From positions 1 to 23,470 of IMG/VR virus record IMGVR_UViG_3300009159_000330: 23,470 bases of DNA; one strand, given 5' to 3'. Source of the DNA: a virus. The notes under the pieces were generated by a model, which was not told the DNA's origin, searched no databases, and was given only the letters and a program-made list of their open reading frames with translations. A program made the position numbers and the translations under genes. Positions 6,368-14,852 of the stretch are shown here, piece by piece (the stretch's first letter is position 1; every line of letters starts with the position of its first letter).

Positions 6368-6655
6368 TTACGCCATTGGCCCACGAGCCATGCGACCTTT
6401 GGTTGCCGCACCACTACCACGGACTTCAATGCCGCTGGTTTTGATGTCATCAGCATTGGGGTTGCCTAAGCTCACCCGCATTGCTGGAGTGCGAGTGGTT
6501 ACCTTGTCTGCCGACAATGTGTTGGGGTCAACCGCTTTGTTGCGTGAATTTTCAAGCTGATTAATGGTCATGCTTTTTCCCTTCATGGTATGAGGAGGCG
6601 CATACACAGAGGCATCGCCCACTTCCTTACCCATCATTTTTTTGCTGTATCCCAT
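6368..6655 (-). CDS. Small basic protein with RGSGAATKG C-terminal motif
   Basis: The start is the ATG at 6655, preceded by GGAGG at ideal spacing; an in-frame GTG at 6667 lacks this support. The 95-aa product begins MGYSKKMMGKEVGDASVY and contains a segment KSMTINQLENSRNKAVDPNT. It ends GIEVRGSGAATKGRMARGPM-A. The C-terminal RGSGAATKG resembles the RGDGCAVRGKTKG tag of the genes at 8.9-12.0 kb, with Ala replacing Cys, so it may be a divergent member of that tag family. I have the impression that this ending recurs in environmental phage proteins, but I know no function. The gene follows the 62-aa gene with one intervening base. Confidence 0.75.
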   Translation of the reverse strand: MGYSKKMMGKEVGDASVYAPPHTMKGKSMTINQLENSRNKAVDPNTLSADKVTTRTPAMRVSLGNPNADDIKTSGIEVRGSGAATKGRMARGPMA

Positions 6656-6656
6656 A

Positions 6657-6845
6657 TCAGCCTCCACGACCAGAGCGTTTCTGGTTCATTGCACGAGCCA
6701 TATTGCGACCCATAGCCTTCATGGCTACGCCAGTAACGCCGTGCTTGGCTTTACCGCCCACCATTGAAGGAACCTTTGGGCCGTCAATCCCAATTTGTTT
6801 ACCGACTGTTTTGCCTTTTTTGGCAACGCCATCAAATCCTGCCAT
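6657..6845 (-). CDS. Very basic Gly/Lys-rich small protein, 62 aa
   Basis: MAGFDGVAKKGKTVGKQIGI is followed by a segment with KVPSMVGGKAKHGVTG and an Arg/Met-rich end (MGRNMARAMNQKRSGRGG). Positive residues greatly outnumber acidic ones, so it could bind nucleic acid. No cysteine, membrane segment or known domain is visible. The last codons (CGT GGA GGC TGA) supply the GGAGG ribosome binding site for the next gene. The function is unknown; it belongs by composition to the run of small basic proteins that occupies 6.4-12.0 kb. Confidence 0.7.
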   Translation of the reverse strand: MAGFDGVAKKGKTVGKQIGIDGPKVPSMVGGKAKHGVTGVAMKAMGRNMARAMNQKRSGRGG

Positions 6846-6856
6846 GATGTTTCTCC

Positions 6857-7282
6857 TTATACCTGTACTGTAACGCTGTTTAAACTAACTGTGGCAATCA
6901 AATCGTTGGGAGTTAACCCAGCATCATCTGCCCTAGCTCCCCCAACGGGATTCCATCCCCATTGAAATACCCTGCTACCGCCATCAGGCCCGCCGCTTGC
7001 AAGTTGCTCCGTGCCGTTGCCGGGGATGACTTGTAGGCCGTTTAAACCTGACGAGTAGTAGCTCAAGTCTGGCCTTGGGTTGCGAACACCCTGCGGATCG
7101 TTCACTGGGTACATACCTAATTGCAGTTGAGGCTGGTCTGGCTCCCAGCATTCTGGACAAACCAAGATGTTGGCAATTTTGGTCTTGATCGTCAGCTTCT
7201 TCAACTGCTTCAGCATATACCGCTGACCACAGCGATCACACTCCGCAATGGAATACTTGCCAGAGGCAAACTGATTAGGCAT
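6857..7282 (-). CDS. Zinc-ribbon virion-region protein, 141 aa
   Basis: The start is the ATG at 7282, which overlaps the end of the upstream connector gene (TAT GCC TAA) and has AAGGA upstream; the longer frame start is less likely. Four cysteines in two CxxC pairs (Cys15-Cys18 in ECDRCG, Cys42-Cys45 in CPECW) form a zinc-ribbon knuckle, separated by a basic LKQLKKLTIKTK strand. A Pro-rich linker follows (EPDQPQLQLGMYPVNDPQ), then a Gly/Asn-rich tail. This arrangement is recurrent in environmental phages as I recall them, without known function. Zinc ribbons usually stabilise a fold or bind nucleic acid or protein. The neighbours suggest a minor virion or head-completion role. Confidence 0.75.
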   Translation of the reverse strand: MPNQFASGKYSIAECDRCGQRYMLKQLKKLTIKTKIANILVCPECWEPDQPQLQLGMYPVNDPQGVRNPRPDLSYYSSGLNGLQVIPGNGTEQLASGGPDGGSRVFQWGWNPVGGARADDAGLTPNDLIATVSLNSVTVQV

Positions 7283-8198
7283 AGAACAAGTTCCTTGGAA
7301 CGTATCTGTCTGAAGCCTTGTCTCGGTCTTCCGTTGAGGCAAGTAGCCACTGCTCTTCGTACTCGTTTTTCAAGAAGTCACGAACATTCATGGCCTGCGG
7401 AATCTTTTGCGATAGGTAAAAGGCCAAGCCTGCCACCATACAAGGAATAAATCTAAATGGAATATCTTGGTAAATCTGACCAGAAGTCCCAGAATCTTGA
7501 ATGCGGCGAAGGCGGTAATACGCAAAAATGTATGGGCCACCACCGTCACCTGCTGGGTAGACATTGATGTTTGGCAGGTTTTGAACTGTCAAAATAGCCG
7601 CAGTGCTGTGCGATGCCGCAGTCGTGCCGTTTTGACCACGAGCGCAGTTAATTAGCTGATTGCCATCTACAGACTGATAGTAGATGGTTTCGTTGTCAAT
7701 CAACACAAAACCGTTGGTCGTAAGCTCGTAAATATTAGTTACTGTGATGGTGGTATCAGTTGCCGTAATTGCGCCGTTTAAAGCGGCTGTGGTGACGTTA
7801 GACTGGCCTGATTGGCGGTTAATCCACACCTGAATAGGTCTACCTTGAGCCAGCTTGTTTGGAATCGTCATGTAGGTCGATTCGCTGATGCGGGTAATGT
7901 TGATGTCGGACTGCTGAGGTGTACCGTTTCCAGTGCGAGTTACTGTGTCCAAAAGATCAATTGTGTCCACAGGAATGGGGTAGCAAGCCTGACCAGTAAC
8001 GATGTTTATAAAACCTTGCTCAATCGTCCAAAGGTTGATGCCACGGTTTGCCCATTCAATGGTCATGATGTTTAGAGAGCGGCGAGCAGTCCTCATGTCG
8101 TAGCCAGTCTTCATTTCCTGACCACAACGCTCATACGCCTCTTCAATCAGGTTGACGAGATCAAGATTAAATGAGGTTGTTCCACTGGTTGTTGACAT
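7275..8198 (-). CDS. Probable head-tail connector or tail accessory protein, 307 aa
   Basis: The N-terminal helical region NLIEEAYERCGQEMKTGYD then TARRSLNIMTIEWANRGINL matches a conserved phage family that I associate with P22 gp4-like tail accessory or connector proteins. The middle is beta-rich and contains an inserted domain (ITATDTTITVTNIYELTTNG and a QSVDGNQLINCARGQNGT turn). The C-terminus is helical again (NVRDFLKNEYEEQWLLASTE). Helix-beta-helix is the usual connector layout. Its ATG shares a base with the preceding TAA (TAATG). The 228-aa gene at 5671 may be a second ring in the same tail stack. The connector role is inferred. Confidence 0.7.
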   Translation of the reverse strand: MSTTSGTTSFNLDLVNLIEEAYERCGQEMKTGYDMRTARRSLNIMTIEWANRGINLWTIEQGFINIVTGQACYPIPVDTIDLLDTVTRTGNGTPQQSDINITRISESTYMTIPNKLAQGRPIQVWINRQSGQSNVTTAALNGAITATDTTITVTNIYELTTNGFVLIDNETIYYQSVDGNQLINCARGQNGTTAASHSTAAILTVQNLPNINVYPAGDGGGPYIFAYYRLRRIQDSGTSGQIYQDIPFRFIPCMVAGLAFYLSQKIPQAMNVRDFLKNEYEEQWLLASTEDRDKASDRYVPRNLFYA

Positions 8199-8431
8199 TA
8201 TCTAAACCCTGCTGTTTTCTTTGCAATGCTTTTGGGCTGTGCTACAAATTGTTTTCCTGCCGCTTTACCTTTGCGTTTTGCTTTGGTTGTAGCCGCATAT
8301 TCGGAAGAAGACAAAGATTTAATGGCGGCTTCAGGCAAGTATCTTTCGCCTGTTTTTGACGAAGGCTTCCCCGACTTAGTGCGCCATTTCTGGTCAGACC
8401 AATTTTTTAAGGAAGTCTGCGGTGCTTTCAA
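8198..8431 (-). CDS. Conserved basic phage protein, probable TTG start, 77 aa
   Basis: I place the start at the TTG at 8431. It overlaps the upstream stop as TTGA and has GGAGGG about 8 bases upstream; an ATG further upstream (8497) would lie well inside the preceding gene. The product (M)KAPQTSLKNWSDQKWRTKSG continues KPSSKTGERYLPEAAIKSL and ends with an Ala/Lys-rich helix (EYAATTKAKRKGKAAGKQF). I recognise this as a widespread conserved phage protein, probably the DUF5872 group, of unknown function. The many basic residues suggest DNA contact. The start is an informed choice, since non-ATG starts are rare here. Confidence 0.75.
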   Translation of the reverse strand: MKAPQTSLKNWSDQKWRTKSGKPSSKTGERYLPEAAIKSLSSSEYAATTKAKRKGKAAGKQFVAQPKSIAKKTAGFR

Positions 8432-8907
8432 TCTTTGTACCCTCCGCCTTTTTCTTTGTACCTCTTGGCAAGCAACTGTGCTTTTCTTGCCGACCACTGT
8501 CCTGCCGCCGTGCCTTGTACCGCCGAAGCTTTGATAGAGTTAAACAACGACTTCCGCATACTGGGCTTGGTGTAGTTGCCAGCCTCATTTACGCTTCCGC
8601 CCTTTTCAAATCTCTTGCTGTAAGTTACGCCACCGCCAGTGATTTTGCCTTTAAATTCACCGTCTTTTGGTTTGTATCCGCCGCCTTCAATATACGCAGA
8701 AACATCAGAATCTTTTCCAAGACTCTTGGTAACTCCAGCCCTGCCGCCGCCACCTGTACCATATTTGTCAGAGTTGATTTGACCTTCGAGGTAAGGCTTA
8801 ACGTCTTTGTTAACCTCGCCACCCTCTTTAAACTGTTTAAACGCAGTCTCATCCCGCCGAGCTTTGGTTTTGGCTTTTGGCATCTTTGATGGAGCAATGG
8901 CTCCCAT
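8428..8907 (-). CDS. Basic Gly-rich protein with MGAIAPSKMP start, 159 aa
   Basis: I choose the ATG at 8907, giving MGAIAPSKMPKAKTKARRDE; an upstream ATG at 8946 lies inside the preceding gene. The ribosome binding site is weak (GTGGG). KEGGEV, EGGGYK and EKGGSV motifs recur through the protein, together with a GTGGGGRAGVTKSLG loop and a repeated Y-x-EG pattern (KPYLEGQINSDK, SAYIEGGGYKPK). The C-terminal SARKAQLLAKRYKEKGGGYK is strongly basic. It shares the KGG style of the neighbouring genes but lacks the DGCA tag. A beta-rich core with basic tail is likely. The function is unknown; I infer a minor virion protein. Confidence 0.72.
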   Translation of the reverse strand: MGAIAPSKMPKAKTKARRDETAFKQFKEGGEVNKDVKPYLEGQINSDKYGTGGGGRAGVTKSLGKDSDVSAYIEGGGYKPKDGEFKGKITGGGVTYSKRFEKGGSVNEAGNYTKPSMRKSLFNSIKASAVQGTAAGQWSARKAQLLAKRYKEKGGGYKD

Positions 8908-8914
8908 CCCACGA

Positions 8915-10000
8915 CTAGCAAGCACCTTTGCCTCCGTACATACCACCAGACTTCATCTTAGAGATCATGCCTTTGGTCTTGCCACGAATAGCACAACCAT
9001 CTGCACGACTGGATGCTGAGCTTACAGAGCCGCCCTTGGCAAACTTCTTGATTGCGCCGCCTTTGTTATACATAGGGGGGAAAGGTTCATCACCTTCATA
9101 CTTGTAACCTGAGTTAGCCTTGCTTGCCCCCGGCCTTTCTTGCATCACTGGGTCTTTAGCATCTCTCTTGGCTTGAGCGGCTTTTTTTCGTGCGGCGGCT
9201 TGAGCGGCTCTGGCTTCGGCTTGAGCGGCACGAGCCTCGACCTGAGCAATTCTGTCCATTGCCTTTGGGCCACCAGCCCAAGCAGAAGGGTTCATCACAG
9301 CCTCTGCCCTGCCGGGCATTGCCACCCTGCGAACTTCTTCCATGTTCTTTAGGCGTTGACCAGCGGGGCTTAATTTTTCAGCTGTAGCCGCTTTTGAAGC
9401 ACGGCTACCCATAGCCAATTCAGCGCCAATCTTTCCAACGCCACCACCCAAAGGTGTCAGCGCAGACATGGTGTTGGAGACATTGCGACCAAGCTCAGTT
9501 CCCGTGACTCGTTGGCCTTGGTTAATCGCTTCCCGTTGCTCGTCAGACATAGACTGGCCGGGGATTTGAGAAACCGCTCTGTCACTTGAATAAGGAATTT
9601 TTGCTCTTTGACTTGCTTGACGGCGTGATGCGTTAGCCAATTCATCAGCACTTTTTCCAGAACCAAGGGAAAGACCTTGACTTGATTTCTCAACTTTTTT
9701 AACAGCCTTTGCCAAACCAGACTTTCCTTCTGATTCTGACGAGTCAGAATCCATAACAGAATTATCTTTTGACGGAGGAAGTTGCGTAAAGTCATACTTA
9801 TATTGTTTATAAATAGGGGGCTCGCCAGCCAAAGCACGGCGTACGTCAGATTTGATGTACTCCATTTCATCTTCTGGCGGAAGAGCATTGCCTCTTACGC
9901 CAGAAGAATATCCAGTGTCAGAGCTTAGAGAGGATTTGCCTCCAGTGTAGTAATGCTTGACCTTGCCGCCATCTTTGAATTTCATTTGCTTTTTTGGCAT
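8915..10000 (-). CDS. Large tagged protein with coiled coil and DGCAIRGKTKG motif
   Basis: A 361-aa protein, the longest member of the tagged group. The N-terminus has KDGGKVKHYYTGGK. The middle is polar and probably disordered (SDSSESEGKSG), with a helical part around residues 160-230. Residues 251-281 repeat VEARAAQAEARAAQAAARKK, a clear coiled coil. Near the end come NKGGAIKKFAKGGSVSSASS, then RADGCAIRGKTKG (332-344). Here the tag is followed by 17 extra residues ending YGGKGAC, so it is not strictly terminal. The neighbouring 217-aa protein also ends GGKAC. TAAGGGGTAAATA places a Shine-Dalgarno before the ATG. It may be a scaffold-like or internal virion protein; the function is unknown. 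Confidence 0.75.
   Translation of the reverse strand: MPKKQMKFKDGGKVKHYYTGGKSSLSSDTGYSSGVRGNALPPEDEMEYIKSDVRRALAGEPPIYKQYKYDFTQLPPSKDNSVMDSDSSESEGKSGLAKAVKKVEKSSQGLSLGSGKSADELANASRRQASQRAKIPYSSDRAVSQIPGQSMSDEQREAINQGQRVTGTELGRNVSNTMSALTPLGGGVGKIGAELAMGSRASKAATAEKLSPAGQRLKNMEEVRRVAMPGRAEAVMNPSAWAGGPKAMDRIAQVEARAAQAEARAAQAAARKKAAQAKRDAKDPVMQERPGASKANSGYKYEGDEPFPPMYNKGGAIKKFAKGGSVSSASSRADGCAIRGKTKGMISKMKSGGMYGGKGAC
8969..9034 (-). repeat. Tag-coding repeat, copy D (inside the 361-aa gene)
   Basis: This encodes GGSVSSASSRADGCAIRGKT plus KG. It is about 80% identical at the DNA level over 36 bases to copy A at 10900-10977 (shared core GAGCTTACAGA on the plus strand), so recent duplication or exchange between these two genes is likely. 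Confidence 0.75.
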
Positions 10001-10010
10001 TATTTACCCC

Positions 10011-10664
10011 TTAGCAGGCTTTGCCGCCCATGTTCATTTTGACTACCTTGCCTCTGGTCATACCTTTGGTCTGTACTGTATGCTCGCCATGAGGACGCTT
10101 ACCACCTGCCGTGACCTTGCCCATTGGGGCGGCAATTACGCCGCCTTTGGCGTATTTCATAGTAGCCATGCCGCCTTTAGCCATCTTGCCTTTGCCGTCA
10201 GCCGCAAAGTCAGGAACCATCTTCCCGCCCTTGTTGACCATAGTCATGCCGCCTTCTGCGTAACCTTTTTTCATCATGGGTTTCATTCCCATCATTTGCT
10301 TCTTGTCCATCATCATGTCTTTTTTGGAGCCTTCTTTAACGCCCTTCATTTCGACATCTTTCTTGGACTTCTCAAATGGCATCATGCCTTTTGGCATTCC
10401 ACCTTTTTTAAGCTTTGTGAGGTCAGTAGACTTGCCGCCATGCGCCTGCTTGTCGTGCATAGAAAAAGCCTTCTTCACAACTTTTTTATCTTGTTTGAGA
10501 TCGGACTTCATGGAAGCGCCGCCTTCTTTGAATTTCTTGCCCATGTCTGCTTTCATAAAATCTTCTCCAACTGATTGAGAAACTTTTAGCCGCTTTGCGG
10601 CTGACGGATTGTTGGCTACCAAAGCCATGAAATTGTGTTGCTTTTTACTTTGGCTTGGCATCAT
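10011..10664 (-). CDS. Lys/Met-rich KGG-repeat protein, 217 aa
   Basis: The N-terminal SKKQHNFMALVANNPSAAKR then SVGEDFMKADMG has the KKQxxFM pattern found in small conserved phage proteins (DUF3008-like by memory). The rest is extraordinarily rich in Lys (about 45 of 217) and Met (about 29), with repeated (K/E)GG turns: KKGGM, AEGGM, NKGGK, AKGGM, AKGGV, TAGGK. It ends MTRGKVVKMNMGGKAC; its TKGMTRGK segment resembles the shared tag only loosely. The ATG overlaps the upstream TGA. Low complexity suggests a disordered basic protein that could neutralise packaged DNA. An alternative is a membrane-active or metal-binding (Met-rich) role. The function is unknown. Confidence 0.7.
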   Translation of the reverse strand: MMPSQSKKQHNFMALVANNPSAAKRLKVSQSVGEDFMKADMGKKFKEGGASMKSDLKQDKKVVKKAFSMHDKQAHGGKSTDLTKLKKGGMPKGMMPFEKSKKDVEMKGVKEGSKKDMMMDKKQMMGMKPMMKKGYAEGGMTMVNKGGKMVPDFAADGKGKMAKGGMATMKYAKGGVIAAPMGKVTAGGKRPHGEHTVQTKGMTRGKVVKMNMGGKAC

Positions 10665-10900
10665 TTGACCCCTTGAATAAGCTGATCAATTTTTTCTTCA
10701 AGGCGGTTAAAGCGCTGATCAATGTGGTCAGTAAGTCTTTGCACTTCTGCTTTAGTTGCTGTATCACGGGCAATTTCCTCTCGTGTAATGTTTAAAAGGC
10801 GCTCAATGCGCTTGACATCTTCAAACCTCTCTCGGATGAAGAACCAAAGACCACCCATAACTATGGAGAGTCCAGCAGACCAAATGGTGTTGAGTTCCAT
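10661..10900 (-). CDS. Membrane-anchored coiled-coil protein, 79 aa
   Basis: The start is the ATG at 10900, part of a TGATG overlap; a longer start at 10939 would lie inside the tag of the previous gene. Residues about 6-22 (IWSAGLSIVMGGLWFFI) form one transmembrane helix, followed directly by a basic-acidic coiled coil (RERFEDVKRIERLLNITREE) and a second heptad stretch (RLTDHIDQRFNRLEEKIDQL). Small proteins with this layout are candidate holins or spanin-like proteins, but no lysin gene is nearby in this window. An alternative is a virion membrane-contact protein. It is the only clear membrane protein in the window and sits among basic tagged proteins. Confidence 0.75.
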   Translation of the reverse strand: MELNTIWSAGLSIVMGGLWFFIRERFEDVKRIERLLNITREEIARDTATKAEVQRLTDHIDQRFNRLEEKIDQLIQGVK

Positions 10901-10977
10901 CAAACAAACTTCCCTTTGGTTTTCCCACGCACAGCGCACCCGTCACCACGAGCAGATGCAGAGCTTACAGAACCACC
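10900..10977 (-). repeat. Tag-coding repeat, copy A
   Basis: This is the end of the 98-aa gene and encodes GGSVSSASARGDGCAVRGKT then KGKFV and stop. Its last codons (AAA GGG AAG) also form the ribosome binding site of the next gene. Confidence 0.75.
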
Positions 10978-11196
10978 CTTCGCCCTTTTGATAGGCTTTT
11001 TCATTGCTTGAATTTTTGCCCTCATGTCATCAAACTCCGAATCAAAATCATCTTTTTGATTTTTAAGCGCATTTATTTCTGCTGTTGATTGAGCGTTTCT
11101 TTGGTCAAACTCGGCTTTGGACAAAACTTGATTGTTGTGAGTGTAAACATGATTGCCATTAGCGTCTTTGGTTACTCTAAAAACATCATCAGCCAT
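10900..11196 (-). CDS. Small tagged protein with DGCAVRGKTKGKFV C-terminus
   Basis: The start is the ATG at 11196 in a TAATG overlap. The 98-aa product begins MADDVFRVTKDANGNHVYTH, has an acidic coiled-coil-like middle (AQSTAEINALKNQKDDFDSE then FDDMRAKIQAMKKPIK) and ends AKGGSVSSASARGDGCAVRG then KTKGKFV. The tag is almost identical to that of the next gene upstream and to the internal tag of the 361-aa protein. The last codons (AAA GGG AAG TTT GTT TGA) place an SD-like AAAGGGAAG before the next ATG. No enzymatic motif is seen. The acidic body with a basic tag suggests a cargo or adaptor protein; this is inference. Confidence 0.72.
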   Translation of the reverse strand: MADDVFRVTKDANGNHVYTHNNQVLSKAEFDQRNAQSTAEINALKNQKDDFDSEFDDMRAKIQAMKKPIKRAKGGSVSSASARGDGCAVRGKTKGKFV

Positions 11197-11273
11197 TACA
11201 CAAACCTGCCCTTGGTTTTGCCACGAACCGCACACCCATCACCACGTTTGCTGGCGCTAGAAACCTTGCCGCC
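11196..11273 (-). repeat. Tag-coding repeat, copy B
   Basis: This is the end of the 164-aa gene and encodes GGKVSSASKRGDGCAVRGKT then KGRFV and stop. On the DNA it matches copy C over about 46 bases with roughly seven differences. Confidence 0.75.
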
Positions 11274-11690
11274 TTTTTTATATTCTTCTTTACCACGAGC
11301 TTCACGCTTAAGCTCGGCGGCGGATTGACGTCTTACGGCATCAAAACCAGCTTCTCGTGCGCCAGACATTAGTGTTCGATCGCCATGCTCAGCCGCCTCA
11401 AGGCCACGTTTGCCAGCCATTAAGTTTCTAACTGAGCGATATGCGTCAGCCCCAATACCCTCATCCCGCTGATAGTTATCTCCAACCTGACTCTTCATGT
11501 ACGCACCTTGTGCGTCAGCCCTAATTTGAGCTTTATCAATAGCCTCATCTTGTGGTTGATAATATGGAGCGCCGGGTTTGTTTTTAGTGACTCTTTTTTT
11601 TGTTTCCGAAGCAATATCGGCTCTGCGTTCGTCTTCACGATTCTCACGATTCATTCGATCGAATGGTGTTTCGTATTTGTATTTAGCCAT
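11196..11690 (-). CDS. Charged tagged protein with DGCAVRGKTKGRFV C-terminus
   Basis: The 164-aa product starts MAKYKYETPFDRMNRENRED and is highly charged and helical throughout (RRADIASETKKRVTKNKPGA, ADAQGAYMKSQVGDNYQRDE, AAELKREARGKEEYKKGGK). It ends VSSASKRGDGCAVRGKTKGR then FV. The body shows no resemblance to the other tagged proteins; only the C-terminal 25 residues are shared. The end of the preceding gene supplies a GGGAGG Shine-Dalgarno nine bases before this ATG. No membrane segment or catalytic motif is visible. A protein of this composition could be an internal virion or ejection-related protein, but that is speculation. Confidence 0.72.
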   Translation of the reverse strand: MAKYKYETPFDRMNRENREDERRADIASETKKRVTKNKPGAPYYQPQDEAIDKAQIRADAQGAYMKSQVGDNYQRDEGIGADAYRSVRNLMAGKRGLEAAEHGDRTLMSGAREAGFDAVRRQSAAELKREARGKEEYKKGGKVSSASKRGDGCAVRGKTKGRFV

Positions 11691-11756
11691 TTACACAAAC
11701 CTCCCTTTGGTTTTGCCACGGATGGCACAGCCATCAGCCTTTGTTACATACCCGCC
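11691..11756 (-). repeat. Tag-coding repeat, copy C
   Basis: This is the end of the DUF6321-like gene and encodes GGYVTKADGCAIRGKTKGRF then V and stop. The segment before the DGCA is shorter than in copies A, B and D (no SSAS), so this copy has a different junction to its host gene. Confidence 0.75.
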
Positions 11757-12005
11757 TTCAGCGCAATTCCATGCACGAAGACTCTTGTTAATCCTCGAAT
11801 CTGGATCGCTTGCGGTCTTGGCGCTTGTGAGCTTCTTCTTCATCCCCTCCATACGGGCGCAGAAGGAATCCCTGCGACTGCCACCTTCTGGTTGTGGACG
11901 CTTTAGATTCATCCCCTGAGCCTTGGCAGAAGCCCTCCCTTTTGCGTTTAAACCGCCTTTGGGATTCTTCCCTTCCGCTCTTTGCCATGCTGGAGATTTA
12001 GCCAT
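11691..12005 (-). CDS. DUF6321-like protein carrying the DGCAIRGKTKGRFV tag
   Basis: The 104-aa body KSPAWQRAEGKNPKGGLNAK then RPQPEGGSRRDSFCARMEGM then KTASDPDSRINKSLRAWNC matches a conserved phage domain I recognise as DUF6321-type, function unknown. In my memory the conserved body ends near SLRAWNC; here it is extended by AEGGYVTKADGCAIRGKTKG then RFV, the shared tag. So the tag appears added to a conserved domain. The start has a perfect AAGGAGG six bases upstream of the ATG at 12005 and overlaps the end of the glycosyltransferase gene by eight bases. The invariant Cys residues and Arg clusters suggest nucleic acid or metal binding, unproven. Confidence 0.8.
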   Translation of the reverse strand: MAKSPAWQRAEGKNPKGGLNAKGRASAKAQGMNLKRPQPEGGSRRDSFCARMEGMKKKLTSAKTASDPDSRINKSLRAWNCAEGGYVTKADGCAIRGKTKGRFV

Positions 12006-12750
12006 TTACAACCTCCTTGCCATCATCAAGAGGGCGGAGCATTGGATACAGATAATCCTCGCCAAAAGAGCCTTCAAACTCATGGATGCCCATGTGTCCA
12101 AGCTTGATAGTGGGGTCTATCCAAACCTCAAATCCAACCTCTCTGGCACGGTCACAGAAGGTGTAATCCTCCCCGACATAGCCTTCTGGCGTGGACTTGA
12201 AATCAAAGAATGAGTAGGACTTGCCATCCTGAATGCGGTCATCGATATATGCCCACTCAGGATGTGCATTCTGAAGAGTGGTGAACACATCACGGCGGAT
12301 GATCATGAATGCAGTGGCAACACGCAAGGCACGAACAAGACCCATTGGGTTCATTTGAACCTGACGGTCTTCATCAATATCCAGTGTAGAGATGTAGACC
12401 TTGCCCTTTTTACGAGCTACAGGAATACCAGCAACGATCCCTTTCTTGGGATCGCTGTTCCATGCCATGAGGCGAAAAACATCGTCAGCATTGAATGTGA
12501 TGTCAGAGTCAATGAACATCAGATCAGTGCAGTCAGACTCCAAGAAGTCATACGCAATCAAGTTTCTGGCACGAGAAACAACAGAGCATCCAGAGACGTT
12601 GCCCACTTGGATTTGAACGCCGTGCTTGCTGGCTTCAACGCAGAAATGAGCAAATGAGATTGCCCACTTCGTTGCTACCTTGTAGTCATACGAAGGAATG
12701 CCGATCATTATTTTTCGACCAGCCAGATTGAATGCGCCTTCTTGTTGCAT
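11998..12750 (-). CDS. GT-A fold glycosyltransferase
   Basis: A 250-aa protein of the size of single-domain GT-A glycosyltransferases. KIMIGIPSYDYKVATKWAIS is the nucleotide-binding first strand and helix. SGCSVVSRARNLIAYDFLES is followed by TDLMFIDSDITF, with the DSD motif (81-83) that coordinates metal and the sugar-nucleotide donor. GIVAGIPVARKKGK and RVATAFMIIRRDVF follow. The C-terminal GYVGEDYTFCDRAREVGFEV has the GED acid typical of the acceptor side, then HMG (219-221). There is no membrane anchor or signal peptide. It would transfer a sugar to a phage protein, a DNA base or a host component; the substrate cannot be read here. Its place between virion genes favours modification of a structural protein. 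Confidence 0.85.
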   Translation of the reverse strand: MQQEGAFNLAGRKIMIGIPSYDYKVATKWAISFAHFCVEASKHGVQIQVGNVSGCSVVSRARNLIAYDFLESDCTDLMFIDSDITFNADDVFRLMAWNSDPKKGIVAGIPVARKKGKVYISTLDIDEDRQVQMNPMGLVRALRVATAFMIIRRDVFTTLQNAHPEWAYIDDRIQDGKSYSFFDFKSTPEGYVGEDYTFCDRAREVGFEVWIDPTIKLGHMGIHEFEGSFGEDYLYPMLRPLDDGKEVVNG

Positions 12751-12753
12751 GGT

Positions 12754-13260
12754 TTATCCGTAGAAGATGTTTACAGCGACCAAGTTTGAAATAGATGCAT
12801 AAACGCCATTGGCAACAAGAACACCTTCAGCAGGTATGAATGGCGCATTGTTGTAAGAATCACCTGCGGCTGTGTCAAAAGACATAAGCCACTTTGTTCC
12901 GTACACAAGAGAGGGTGTGGCAGTGATAGTTCCTGAGTTGATGTCCGTTAAGGTAAACGAATTTGCATCAACTCTAGTGATTGCGTAGTTGCCGTTGGTA
13001 GCTGTCCCACCAGTTCCCGCCGCAAAATCAAACCCACGAACATCGCCTGTAACAAGGCCGTGCGCCGTTGAAGAAACAGTAACTGTTGTTCCTGATCTTC
13101 CATAGGTTGCTGTGGTTACAGGAGCCACTGTTGTGTCAAATAACGAAACGCTACCAGCGGTTGCGCTACCAGTGAAAGAAATCGCACGAACACGATTCCT
13201 GCCCATCACCATAAACCCACTTGCGTTTATGTGCGCTTGCTTTACGTCTGTCTGCATCAT
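12754..13260 (-). CDS. Beta-rich virion structural protein, 168 aa
   Basis: MMQTDVKQAHINASGFMVMG is followed by a domain TVTVSSTAHGLVTGDVRGFD then NYAITRVDANSFTLTDINSG. The HGL-x-TGD ... NG-Y-x-(V/I) ... D-x-NSFTL pattern is a known small beta domain repeated in phage tail and virion proteins. The remaining C-terminal half is hydrophobic beta (ASISNLVAVNIFYG). AAAGGA lies six bases before the ATG at 13260. The gene lies just after the second terminator, so its transcript must come from read-through or from an unseen promoter. A head-completion or decoration role is likely. The exact role is unknown. Confidence 0.75.
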   Translation of the reverse strand: MMQTDVKQAHINASGFMVMGRNRVRAISFTGSATAGSVSLFDTTVAPVTTATYGRSGTTVTVSSTAHGLVTGDVRGFDFAAGTGGTATNGNYAITRVDANSFTLTDINSGTITATPSLVYGTKWLMSFDTAAGDSYNNAPFIPAEGVLVANGVYASISNLVAVNIFYG

Positions 13261-13276
13261 GGCTAATCCTTTAAAG

Positions 13277-13300
13277 AAAAAAAGGGGAGACTAGCTCCCC
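13277..13300 (-). terminator. Rho-independent terminator after the 154-aa structural gene
   Basis: On the minus strand a perfect 6-bp stem GGGGAG/CTCCCC with a 5-base loop (CTAGT) is followed by a run of seven T. It lies seven bases after the TAA of the gene at 13307-13771 and just before the Shine-Dalgarno of the next gene, so it should cut expression of everything downstream unless read through. Confidence 0.85.
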
Positions 13301-13306
13301 GTCAGA

Positions 13307-13771
13307 TTAGTTTTGAGTAACAGTTGGATTGGCAGAACCATTTGAATCACGCACAGAATAAGTGATGATGATGGTTGCCGCACCAGTAGACAATGCAGTG
13401 CCAGCCAATGTGTAGCTAACGATGGCATCAGTTGTGCCTACATTGAGGAACAAGGCTGGTGTTGTTGCATTTGCAGTTAAGCTGATGCCACCAACAGAAG
13501 TGATTGTTCCTGTGGTTGTGAAGTCAACAGCACCAATACTTAGTTTGGCAGTTGTTGCCGCACTAAACACAACTGTGGTGACGATCTTGATGTCGGTAAT
13601 TTGAGCGCCAGCGGGGAGAACAAAAGCAGTGCCAGTCAAAGTGCCGAACACAACATTTACAGATTGGCTAACTGTAGTAGCGCCCATGTTGCGAATTGTT
13701 CCAGCAGTTGAGCCAGTGGTGTTTTTAACAGTGCCCAACAGCCAAGGGCCTAGGTGAGTTGCGAATCCCAT
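13307..13771 (-). CDS. Small beta-rich structural protein between two terminators
   Basis: The start is the ATG at 13771 with AAGGA six bases upstream; a longer start at 13789 lacks this support. The 154-aa product MGFATHLGPWLLGTVKNTTG is Thr/Ala/Val-rich with many short strands (ITDIKIVTTVVFSAATTAKL) and ends YSVRDSNGSANPTVTQN. Charged residues are very few, as in capsid decoration or head fibre proteins. Two terminators and a promoter candidate bracket it, so it may be transcribed as its own unit at high level, which fits a protein needed in many copies per virion. No named family is recognised. Confidence 0.8.
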   Translation of the reverse strand: MGFATHLGPWLLGTVKNTTGSTAGTIRNMGATTVSQSVNVVFGTLTGTAFVLPAGAQITDIKIVTTVVFSAATTAKLSIGAVDFTTTGTITSVGGISLTANATTPALFLNVGTTDAIVSYTLAGTALSTGAATIIITYSVRDSNGSANPTVTQN

Positions 13772-13856
13772 GATTATTCCTTTATGCAAAAGTCCCTACG
13801 TCATCATTGCATTGTCCGCTGGGGCGGTTGACGTAAGTAAAAGCCCAGATACCTAG

Positions 13857-13885
13857 TTTATACACCACATTTAAACGCTGTACAA
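13857..13885 (-). promoter_or_regulatory. Sigma70-like promoter candidate before the 154-aa gene
   Basis: On the minus strand a -35-like TTGTAC (13885-13880, three of six matches) and a -10 TATAAA (13862-13857, five of six) are separated by exactly 17 bases. It lies immediately downstream of the capsid gene terminator and upstream of the 154-aa gene. The spacer contains GTTTAAAT, one base off the recurring palindrome. A chance match in AT-rich intergenic DNA cannot be excluded. Confidence 0.4.
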
Positions 13886-13896
13886 GGTTTAAACGC

Positions 13897-13920
13897 AAAA
13901 AAAAGACTCCCGAAGGAGCC
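13897..13920 (-). terminator. Rho-independent terminator after the major capsid gene
   Basis: On the minus strand a stem GGCTCC/GGAGTC (one G-T wobble) is closed by a TTCG tetraloop between C and G, an especially stable loop, and is followed by eight T. The stem can extend with A-T pairs into the T run. It lies 17 bases after the capsid protein stop. A GTTTAAAC copy (13887-13894) sits directly beyond it. Confidence 0.9.
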
Positions 13921-13937
13921 TTTCTTTCCAAGGGCAA

Positions 13938-14852
13938 TTAAGCGCCTTGTGCGCCCCACATACCGAGGGGATCAGACCAACCGAAGCTATAACGCTCACG
14001 AGACTTGTAACGGACGTTACCAGTATCAAAGTCACCGTCCATGCTGTTAGACAAGGGGGTGCGAACGAAATGCTTCATGCCGTTGGGAACATCGGTGGTC
14101 AGGAACCAGCCGTTAGGATCGGTCAAGAAGTTGTTAACGGTGTAACCTTCAGAGACAGAACCATTGTTCTTCACAGCGTTGATGTCGTTGTCGGTTGTGC
14201 CAACACGCAGTTCGGTTTCAAGCAAACGAGTTGCAACGAACTGAAGCTGGGGAGGAACAATCAACTTCTTGGGCTTGGCGGCGATCAACAGATCACGTTC
14301 ATCAGTCCACTGCTGGATTTGGATAATGGCGGCTTCCAAGGAAGTCTCATTCAAATCTGCGGCGGTTGATTGGGTGTTGCTGTTAGTTCCACCAGAAACC
14401 AAGGGGTGGGCTGTAGAGAACAAAGGCACACCATCACCACCGTAATAAGCGGCAGAGTTGGTGAAACCGTTGTTCAACACGGCGGCGGCTTTAACCTGCT
14501 TGGTGTAAGCCATTGCACGAGCTAAAGCCTTGGTGTAGCGAGCAGACAAGCTGTCGTACAAGTTATCTTCGATGGCCTCTTCGGTCAGCGAGAAACCCAA
14601 AGCAATGGTTTCGTGGTTGTAACGAGCTGTAAACGCCTCTTGAGCATTGTCATAAGCGATGGCTTGGCCTTCGTTCTTGACTGGTGCGGCAGAGAAGCCT
14701 GACAGCTTGGTTTCTTCTTCAAAAGAACGCTCTGATGTTTCAGTGTCATAAATTTCTTTATGTTGCTGACCATACGTTGCGTATTCCAAACCGAACAAAG
14801 CGTTCAATCCGGGGAGCAGTTCTTTGAGTAGTTGTGCACGAGAAATAGCCAT
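13938..14852 (-). CDS. Major capsid protein
   Basis: A 304-aa protein in the canonical place after scaffold, with the only strong terminator in the head module right after it. The N-terminal MAISRAQLLKELLPGLNALF is followed by a YGQQHKEIYDTETSERSFEE arm. A central segment PLFSTAHPLVSGGTNSNTQS resembles the LF-STAHPL motif of Mu gpT-like and related HK97-fold capsid proteins. A helix AIIQIQQWTDERDLLIAAKP then KLIVPPQLQFVATRLLETEL is the spine-helix and beta region typical of this fold. It ends RYSFGWSDPLGMWGAQGA. There is no obvious protease cleavage arm and no protease gene in the window, so maturation may proceed without cleavage. Confidence 0.88.
   Translation of the reverse strand: MAISRAQLLKELLPGLNALFGLEYATYGQQHKEIYDTETSERSFEEETKLSGFSAAPVKNEGQAIAYDNAQEAFTARYNHETIALGFSLTEEAIEDNLYDSLSARYTKALARAMAYTKQVKAAAVLNNGFTNSAAYYGGDGVPLFSTAHPLVSGGTNSNTQSTAADLNETSLEAAIIQIQQWTDERDLLIAAKPKKLIVPPQLQFVATRLLETELRVGTTDNDINAVKNNGSVSEGYTVNNFLTDPNGWFLTTDVPNGMKHFVRTPLSNSMDGDFDTGNVRYKSRERYSFGWSDPLGMWGAQGA

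Follow-up and report, generated by a model that had tools for sequence, protein, structure and literature searches.

A short peptide of 11 residues, DG[C/I/V]A-x-[R/K]GKT-x-G, recurs on otherwise unlike small proteins encoded between the capsid and neck genes of one clade of tailed phages, most of them uncultured. We refer to this peptide as the tag and describe it in a 23.5-kb viral fragment, IMG/VR record IMGVR_UViG_3300009159_000330 (positions 1 to 23,470; hereafter the window). The tag is a portable short linear motif, usually but not necessarily C-terminal, and not a domain; its presence on so many small proteins probably lets one common virus part collect them all. In the window, four of six consecutive genes carry it in the form [A/G]DGCA(I/V)RGKTKG, and the pattern DGCA-x-(R/K)GKTKG has exactly four matches, all on the minus strand and in frame. 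For a shorter tag core, 0.17 matches are expected by chance in the window, and none of 100 shuffles reaches four. The tag that the original prediction had noted on these four genes is real, in frame and far beyond chance, and the phenomenon is larger than it had described: it had overlooked the N-terminal motif on the protein at 6657-6845, a possibly related C-terminal motif on the protein at 6368-6667, and an overlap between the 3' end of the tag and the ribosome-binding site of the following gene.

The tag in the window and across viruses

Tagged protein 1 (104 residues; 11691-12005, minus strand) consists of a DUF6321 domain followed by GGYVTKADGCAIRGKTKGRFV, with the motif at 11704-11735. 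Its body is a member of PF19846 (DUF6321; 66 bits against a gathering cut-off of 28.5) and of phrog_727, phrog_3477 and phrog_4689. Several DUF6321 PHROG profiles place the domain in the C-terminal part of a larger protein, and most relatives stop at RAWNC without a tag; the tag of protein 1 is an extra piece behind the domain. A DUF6321 homologue without the tag is present in 227 relatives, and the protein also occurs with it, which makes the tag an optional add-on. Tagged protein 2 (164 residues; 11196-11690, minus strand; motif at 11209-11240) has a charged body ending in GGKVSSASKRGDGCAVRGKTKGRFV and no match in Pfam or PHROG. Tagged protein 3 (10900-11196, minus strand; motif at 10913-10944) joins a coiled-coil body to GGSVSSASARGDGCAVRGKTKGKFV; it has 98 residues counted from its ATG, or 111 from an alternative GTG start at 11235. 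Tagged protein 4 (361 residues; 8915-10000, minus strand) contains GGSVSSASSRADGCAIRGKTKG and then MISKMKSGGMYGGKGAC, with the motif at 8970-9001, and matches no Pfam or PHROG family above noise. Three of the tags close their protein, with RGKTKG(R/K)FV followed by the stop codon, and the 361-residue protein runs 17 residues past the motif. Three of the four also follow GGxVSSAS, the linker said in the original prediction to be usual, and the bodies, which it called unrelated, show no significant mutual similarity (all pairwise E > 0.02). The four tag cores differ from one another at 5-8 of 33 nucleotides and at 0-1 residue; they are therefore not recent DNA copies.

Related tags were collected by pattern scans of IMG/VR together with a few other fetched loci; the totals are lower bounds. 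At least 579 distinct open reading frames with the Cys-type tag occur in at least 409 loci, all in frame, and among the matches listed the motif lies no more than 31 residues from the C-terminus in 577 of 579. Across 30 long records the motif matches zero to four times per record, in clusters where it matches more than once, and a reversed control pattern has no match in them. The consensus is a linker, GG.V.SASKRA, followed by DG[C/I/V]A-x-[R/K]-G-K-T-[K/R]-G-[K/R]-[M/F/I]-V. Positions D, G, A, G, K, T and G are conserved and the fifth position is free; because most genomes were fetched via the tag, the search pattern itself accounts for part of the conservation of these letters, whereas C-terminal position, genomic context and codon divergence are independent of it. 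In a sister form found in many relatives, Ile or Val stands in place of Cys. This exchange suggests that the residue makes a hydrophobic contact in a buried position, and Cys-based (thiol) chemistry of the tag was rejected because of it.

The placement of the tag is variable. C-terminal position, as first described, is usual, but it is not strict: its distance from the end can be 11, 14 or about 22 residues, and it can also stand at the N-terminus or in tandem within one protein. A C-terminal signal read through its carboxylate, such as an ssrA-like degron, was rejected on these grounds. A Walker A P-loop was rejected as well; GCAIRGKT fits the string, but its Lys is replaced by His, Leu or Met in relatives. 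The Walker A-like region is predicted to be unstructured and lies at the chain end, and no recurrent NTPase family was matched. AlphaFold2 likewise gives the tag no predicted fold of its own, with a pLDDT of 35-44 over the tag and a mean pLDDT of 59 for a conserved 62-residue family bearing the motif and 61 for DUF6321 plus tag; the motif is without fold in both models. Isolated tag peptides have no PHROG match, no Pfam, NCBIfam or PHROGs profile was found that covers the tag (110 tagged proteins gave no recurrent match), and neither the family libraries nor the open literature that were searched gave a description of the peptide strings.

Selection on the peptide and use of its codons

Selection was examined by comparing paralogous tags within the same genome. 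Their codons differ at 59% of shared four-fold residues, against 67% expected for random codons, and their conserved residues differ in only 5.7%. Since the synonymous codons are near-random and the amino acids nearly constant, the peptide is under selection. A different origin, as a mobile or selfish DNA element or as a chance low-complexity likeness among Lys/Gly-rich proteins, could draw on the linker KKGG.V shared among tagged proteins and on the cassette-like spread of the motif. We consider it extremely unlikely, given near-saturation at synonymous sites with constant amino acids, the low number of core matches expected by chance and the absence of matches in the reversed-pattern controls. 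The reading as a DNA element is rejected by the synonymous divergence between paralogous tags.

A second use of the 3' codons is apparent from their position. The end of tag 1 (ACCAAAGGGAGGTTTGTGTAA; AAAGGGAGGTTTGTGTAA) at 11691-11711 on the minus strand doubles as the Shine-Dalgarno sequence of tagged gene 2, which starts at 11690, and the end of tag 2 (ACCAAGGGCAGGTTTGTGTAATG read on; AAGGGCAGGTTTGTGTAATG) at 11196-11216, also on the minus strand, doubles as that of tagged gene 3, with one base shared with its start. Among genes with the short C-terminal tag, the next ATG lies -5 to +6 nucleotides from the stop in 617 of 754, and all 470 Shine-Dalgarno matches of at least 4 nucleotides fall within tag codons. 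Matches of at least 5 nucleotides occur in 25% of tags versus 10% of synonymously resampled tags. GGA or GGG encodes the last Gly in 66% of short C-terminal tags, against 8% for long C-terminal tags and 6% for the other, N-terminal forms; at the other Gly positions these codons make up 1-14% in the three groups, with 3% at the middle Gly of short C-terminal tags. Judging from these patterns, the 3' codons of a tag at a gene end serve also as the ribosome-binding site of the next gene.

The spacing of the next ATG, the Shine-Dalgarno matches inside the tag and the codon bias at the last Gly could suggest that the tag is conserved solely as a translational junction, providing a ribosome-binding site and an overlap for the next gene. 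That is very unlikely. The codon bias vanishes in the long C-terminal and N-terminal forms while the peptide stays, which indicates that the peptide is kept without a ribosome-binding role, and in the DGxAxRG half, which precedes the Shine-Dalgarno site, synonymous positions are free. As the whole explanation the junction is refuted; it holds as a second function of the 3' end of the tag.

Genomic slot, capsid clade and variable bodies

The genes of the window are ordered TerS, TerL, portal, GroES, a scaffold-like protein, a gpT-like major capsid protein (MCP), the run of small proteins, a head-tail adaptor, a gp11-like tail protein and fibre genes; the labels "scaffold-like" and "gp11-like" are our own readings. 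The slot that receives the tags spans 7275-14852 on the minus strand, from the MCP (13938-14852) to the adaptor (7275-8198), and the C-terminal tags of the clade fall here. When window genes were used as queries over 403 loci, the MCP was upstream of the tagged gene in 174 of 174 cases and the adaptor downstream in 340 of 347, with essentially complete strand agreement. Scattering of profile matches over unrelated nonvirion genes had been named beforehand as a result that would speak against the original prediction; the matches lie in the structural operon. Nor is the tag an internal piece of any single known domain, even though the conserved 62-residue family has it as its N-terminus.

The slot was also examined in loci fetched by MCP similarity alone. 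At least one tag is present in 25 of 27 complete slots of the window's clade, and none of 35 sister-group slots, fetched with a wider MCP alignment, has one. In an MCP tree of 82 sequences (44 tagged, 38 untagged), tagged and untagged phages separate in a single change, and the tagged group, which includes MinM2, has 100/100 support and sits on a long branch.

The bodies carrying the tag are hypervariable. Clustering of 540 bodies gave 192 groups, of which 132 have a single member, and among 110 mostly long tagged representatives no match to Pfam, PHROG or NCBIfam recurs. When conserved carriers such as DUF6321 are excluded, 50 of 1034 comparisons (5%) show a homologue of the tagged body in a second genome of at least 90% MCP identity, whereas neighboring small untagged proteins score 44-96% in the same test. 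In several pairs with 93-98% identical MCP genes, the body is replaced while the tag DNA and part of the other slot DNA still align. The alignment typically begins in the linker just before the tag, a break that recombination in the tag and constraint on the tag would produce alike. A weaker reading, for some pairs, is that turnover reflects unconstrained divergence of disordered sequence rather than replacement.

The bodies are short, basic, disorder-prone and aromatic-poor and almost never contain a membrane segment; the MCP, portal and scaffold are acidic. The positive charge of bodies and tags (median net charge of whole tagged proteins, +10) and the few aromatics would suit a nucleic-acid-binding role, in which the GKTKGR-type tail is a basic patch on disordered, protamine-like proteins that condense DNA or act as counter-ions. 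We regard this role as quite unlikely, since D, G, G, T and G are near-invariant over hundreds of sequences, a stricter pattern than a basic patch needs. The fast turnover resembles an arms race, as expected if the tag were aimed at a host factor (for example the ribosome, RNA polymerase, the membrane or a defense protein) and the bodies were late host-directed accessories. This explanation also appears rather unlikely, because the motif is bound to one structural region and one capsid clade and is not genome-wide, and because PADLOC gave nothing beyond marginal matches among the 110 bodies.

Judged by MCP, the cultured phages nearest to the window are three that infect cyanobacteria, MinM2, Pag-Yong1 and Pra-JY27 (68% identity), followed by HTVC023P-type pelagiphages and phage DSL-LC04. 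A tagged protein is present in the cultured phages (Planktothrix phage Pag-Yong1, Pra-JY27; Synechococcus phage MinM2; UMO75986 / WEV89192), and tblastn with isolated tags matched only these three. Megablast of the window against phage isolates found no match, and tblastn with queries of the 62-residue type and of the DGIA type returned nothing useful. A GTDB genome scan for the motif yielded only 5 contigs, so prophages do not commonly carry the motif. Close to the end of a contig from a Patulibacter metagenome-assembled genome, an acyltransferase-like open reading frame (L129:162-1841, minus strand) continues into a perfect DGCAQRGKTKGRMI tag; this frame is probably an assembly chimera. The HTVC023P-type pelagiphages, Roseobacter phages CRP-901/902, which belong to the same wider group as the window phage (PMC10149686), and DSL-LC04 have homologous TerL, portal, GroES, scaffold-like protein, MCP and adaptor. 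HTVC023P and DSL-LC04 resemble the tag clade in having small Lys-rich proteins in the same slot. These relatives are without the DGxAxRGKT tag, and some of their proteins end in RGxGAAxRG.

Two further proteins with end motifs lie beyond the tagged run. The conserved 62-residue protein at 6657-6845 (minus strand) combines an N-terminal DGVAKKGKTVG with a C-terminal helix, GVTG..MK.MGRNMAR..NQ; its N-terminal motif scores 29.5 bits, against a maximum of 19.4 among 6000 reversed open reading frames. The C-terminal module of this family, GVTG..MK..GRNMAR..NQ, also occurs without DGxA behind other N-terminal halves (e.g., KHEKRMHKGMAKGG) and is therefore another exchangeable end module. The conserved 99-residue protein at 6368-6667 (minus strand) ends in RGSGAATKGRMARGPMA, possibly a related second C-terminal motif. 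RGxGAATKGxxARGPMA ends this protein and its relatives and is C-terminal in 339 of 341 instances; RGGGAAVRGMGFKGVF-like forms end HTVC023P proteins, and GGGCEIRGKTKGKMV on some DUF6321 proteins appears intermediate. A shared origin of the tag and these endings is possible. Related-looking RGGGAAVRG..FKG endings occur in tag-negative marine relatives, and RGxGAAxRG strings in the literature led to unrelated papers only.

Of the two untagged proteins in the run, one (10661-10939, minus strand) has one likely membrane segment and a coiled coil and is holin-like by appearance only. The other, a basic protein of 217 residues (10011-10664, minus strand), has an N-terminal PSxSKKQHNFM motif and a C-terminus, HTVQTKGMTRGKVVKMNMGGKAC, that is at most a degenerate tag; its relatives in the clade bear a full DGIA-type tag. 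The PSxSKKQHNFM motif (phrog_16759) recurs at the N-terminal end of various proteins, some of them large and labeled virion structural in PHROGs, and one protein (L176:3350-4900) combines it with a C-terminal DGCA tag. The adaptor has about 308 residues in the tag clade versus about 231 in sister groups, and residues 121-207 of the window adaptor match tail-fibre/baseplate-type profiles, which suggests an inserted domain. A glycosyltransferase-like gene (phrog_1574; 11998-12750, minus strand) directly upstream of the tagged run is present in only 3 of the 27 MCP-fetched slots and is therefore an unlikely partner of the tag. Searches of solved structures for the MCP, adaptor and tagged proteins gave no match.

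A proposed docking role for the tag

We propose that the tag serves as a portable peptide for docking and that a single conserved head or neck partner reads it; the MCP, scaffold, portal and adaptor are candidates for this partner. Docked proteins would be loaded into the procapsid or virion as an exchangeable accessory set, and once loaded they may be ejected into the host. Each gene would act as a plug-in cassette comprising a start, a body, a GG-linker and a tag that also starts the next cassette, with exchange by recombination through tag and linker. Binding to one common partner, as originally suggested, is well supported as an inference from a selected peptide without structure of its own, on unrelated and fast-changing bodies, in one capsid-to-neck slot of one clade. 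The suggested destination, the procapsid interior, is a possibility that agrees with where the genes lie, with their small basic products and with the parallel to phage T4. That the tagged proteins are loaded into the virion we put forward tentatively, at somewhat less than an even chance.

The T4 internal proteins are small, basic and poorly conserved between relatives and carry a targeting peptide of 10-19 residues (PMC9026906). The tagged proteins are similar to IPI, IPII and IPIII in that a short constant peptide sits on small, basic, variable and otherwise unrelated proteins in a head-gene context. The T4 peptide is N-terminal and is cleaved by gp21 (PMC9026906); its sequence is unrelated to the tag. 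In contrast, the tag is mostly C-terminal and doubles as a ribosome-binding site, packaging in the tag phages is presumptive, and the tag does not look like an N-terminal propeptide cleaved by a prohead protease. The scan of window proteins recognized no dedicated prohead protease; profiles that take their name from fused MCP-proteases do match the MCP.

Encapsulin cargo-loading peptides are C-terminal, follow a flexible linker on different cargo proteins and are read by a capsid-fold shell. The tag is similar in its C-terminal position behind a flexible linker on differing proteins. It differs in residing on many hypervariable carriers in a tailed phage, and the peptide sequences are unrelated. 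The tag operon has no encapsulin shell gene, its shell gene being the gpT-like tailed-phage MCP. In its general layout the tag resembles a known kind, that of modular targeting peptides on variable phage proteins.

Several observations weigh against loading into the virion. Virion proteomics for any tagged phage was not found in the sources searched. The capsid-targeting sequences of T4 are N-terminal and removed by a protease, whereas no cleavage site or protease was identified for the mostly C-terminal tag. The slot also holds holin-like genes and, in relatives, lysis genes, so that place alone is no proof of a virion component, and the conserved 62-residue motif protein sits beyond the adaptor. 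No partner was identified, and a search for group-specific divergence gave no more than a lead: the between/within ratio peaks in the MCP, at 1.76, with fixed differences numbering 11 in the MCP and 11 in the portal, on a measure that favors slowly evolving proteins.

The same slot and clade evidence, together with the scaffold-like protein of 318 residues and the phage GroES encoded in the module, is also consistent with docking to a head or neck assembly factor (scaffold, GroES-like protein or adaptor) during morphogenesis only, the tagged helpers staying outside the virion. Helpers of this type would be expected to be conserved, yet the bodies show the lowest conservation in the slot, and we judge this alternative unlikely. 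Loading into the virion, in its fullest form, would amount to a cargo plug-in system in which the dual-coded peptide lets any small protein enter the operon, be expressed and be loaded, so that each phage would have a rapidly exchanged set of injected proteins, probably a counter-defense or takeover repertoire. This extension is doubtful.

That the 3' codons serve both as peptide and as ribosome-binding site suggests how cassettes can be exchanged with the operon left intact. The motif groups hundreds of dark-matter phage proteins into one functional class despite their unlike bodies and provides a handle for annotation and for studying their roles. Should it prove to be a loading signal, chosen proteins could be packed into phage heads by means of a compact tag, and the accessory proteins that an uncultured phage clade injects could be listed from sequence.

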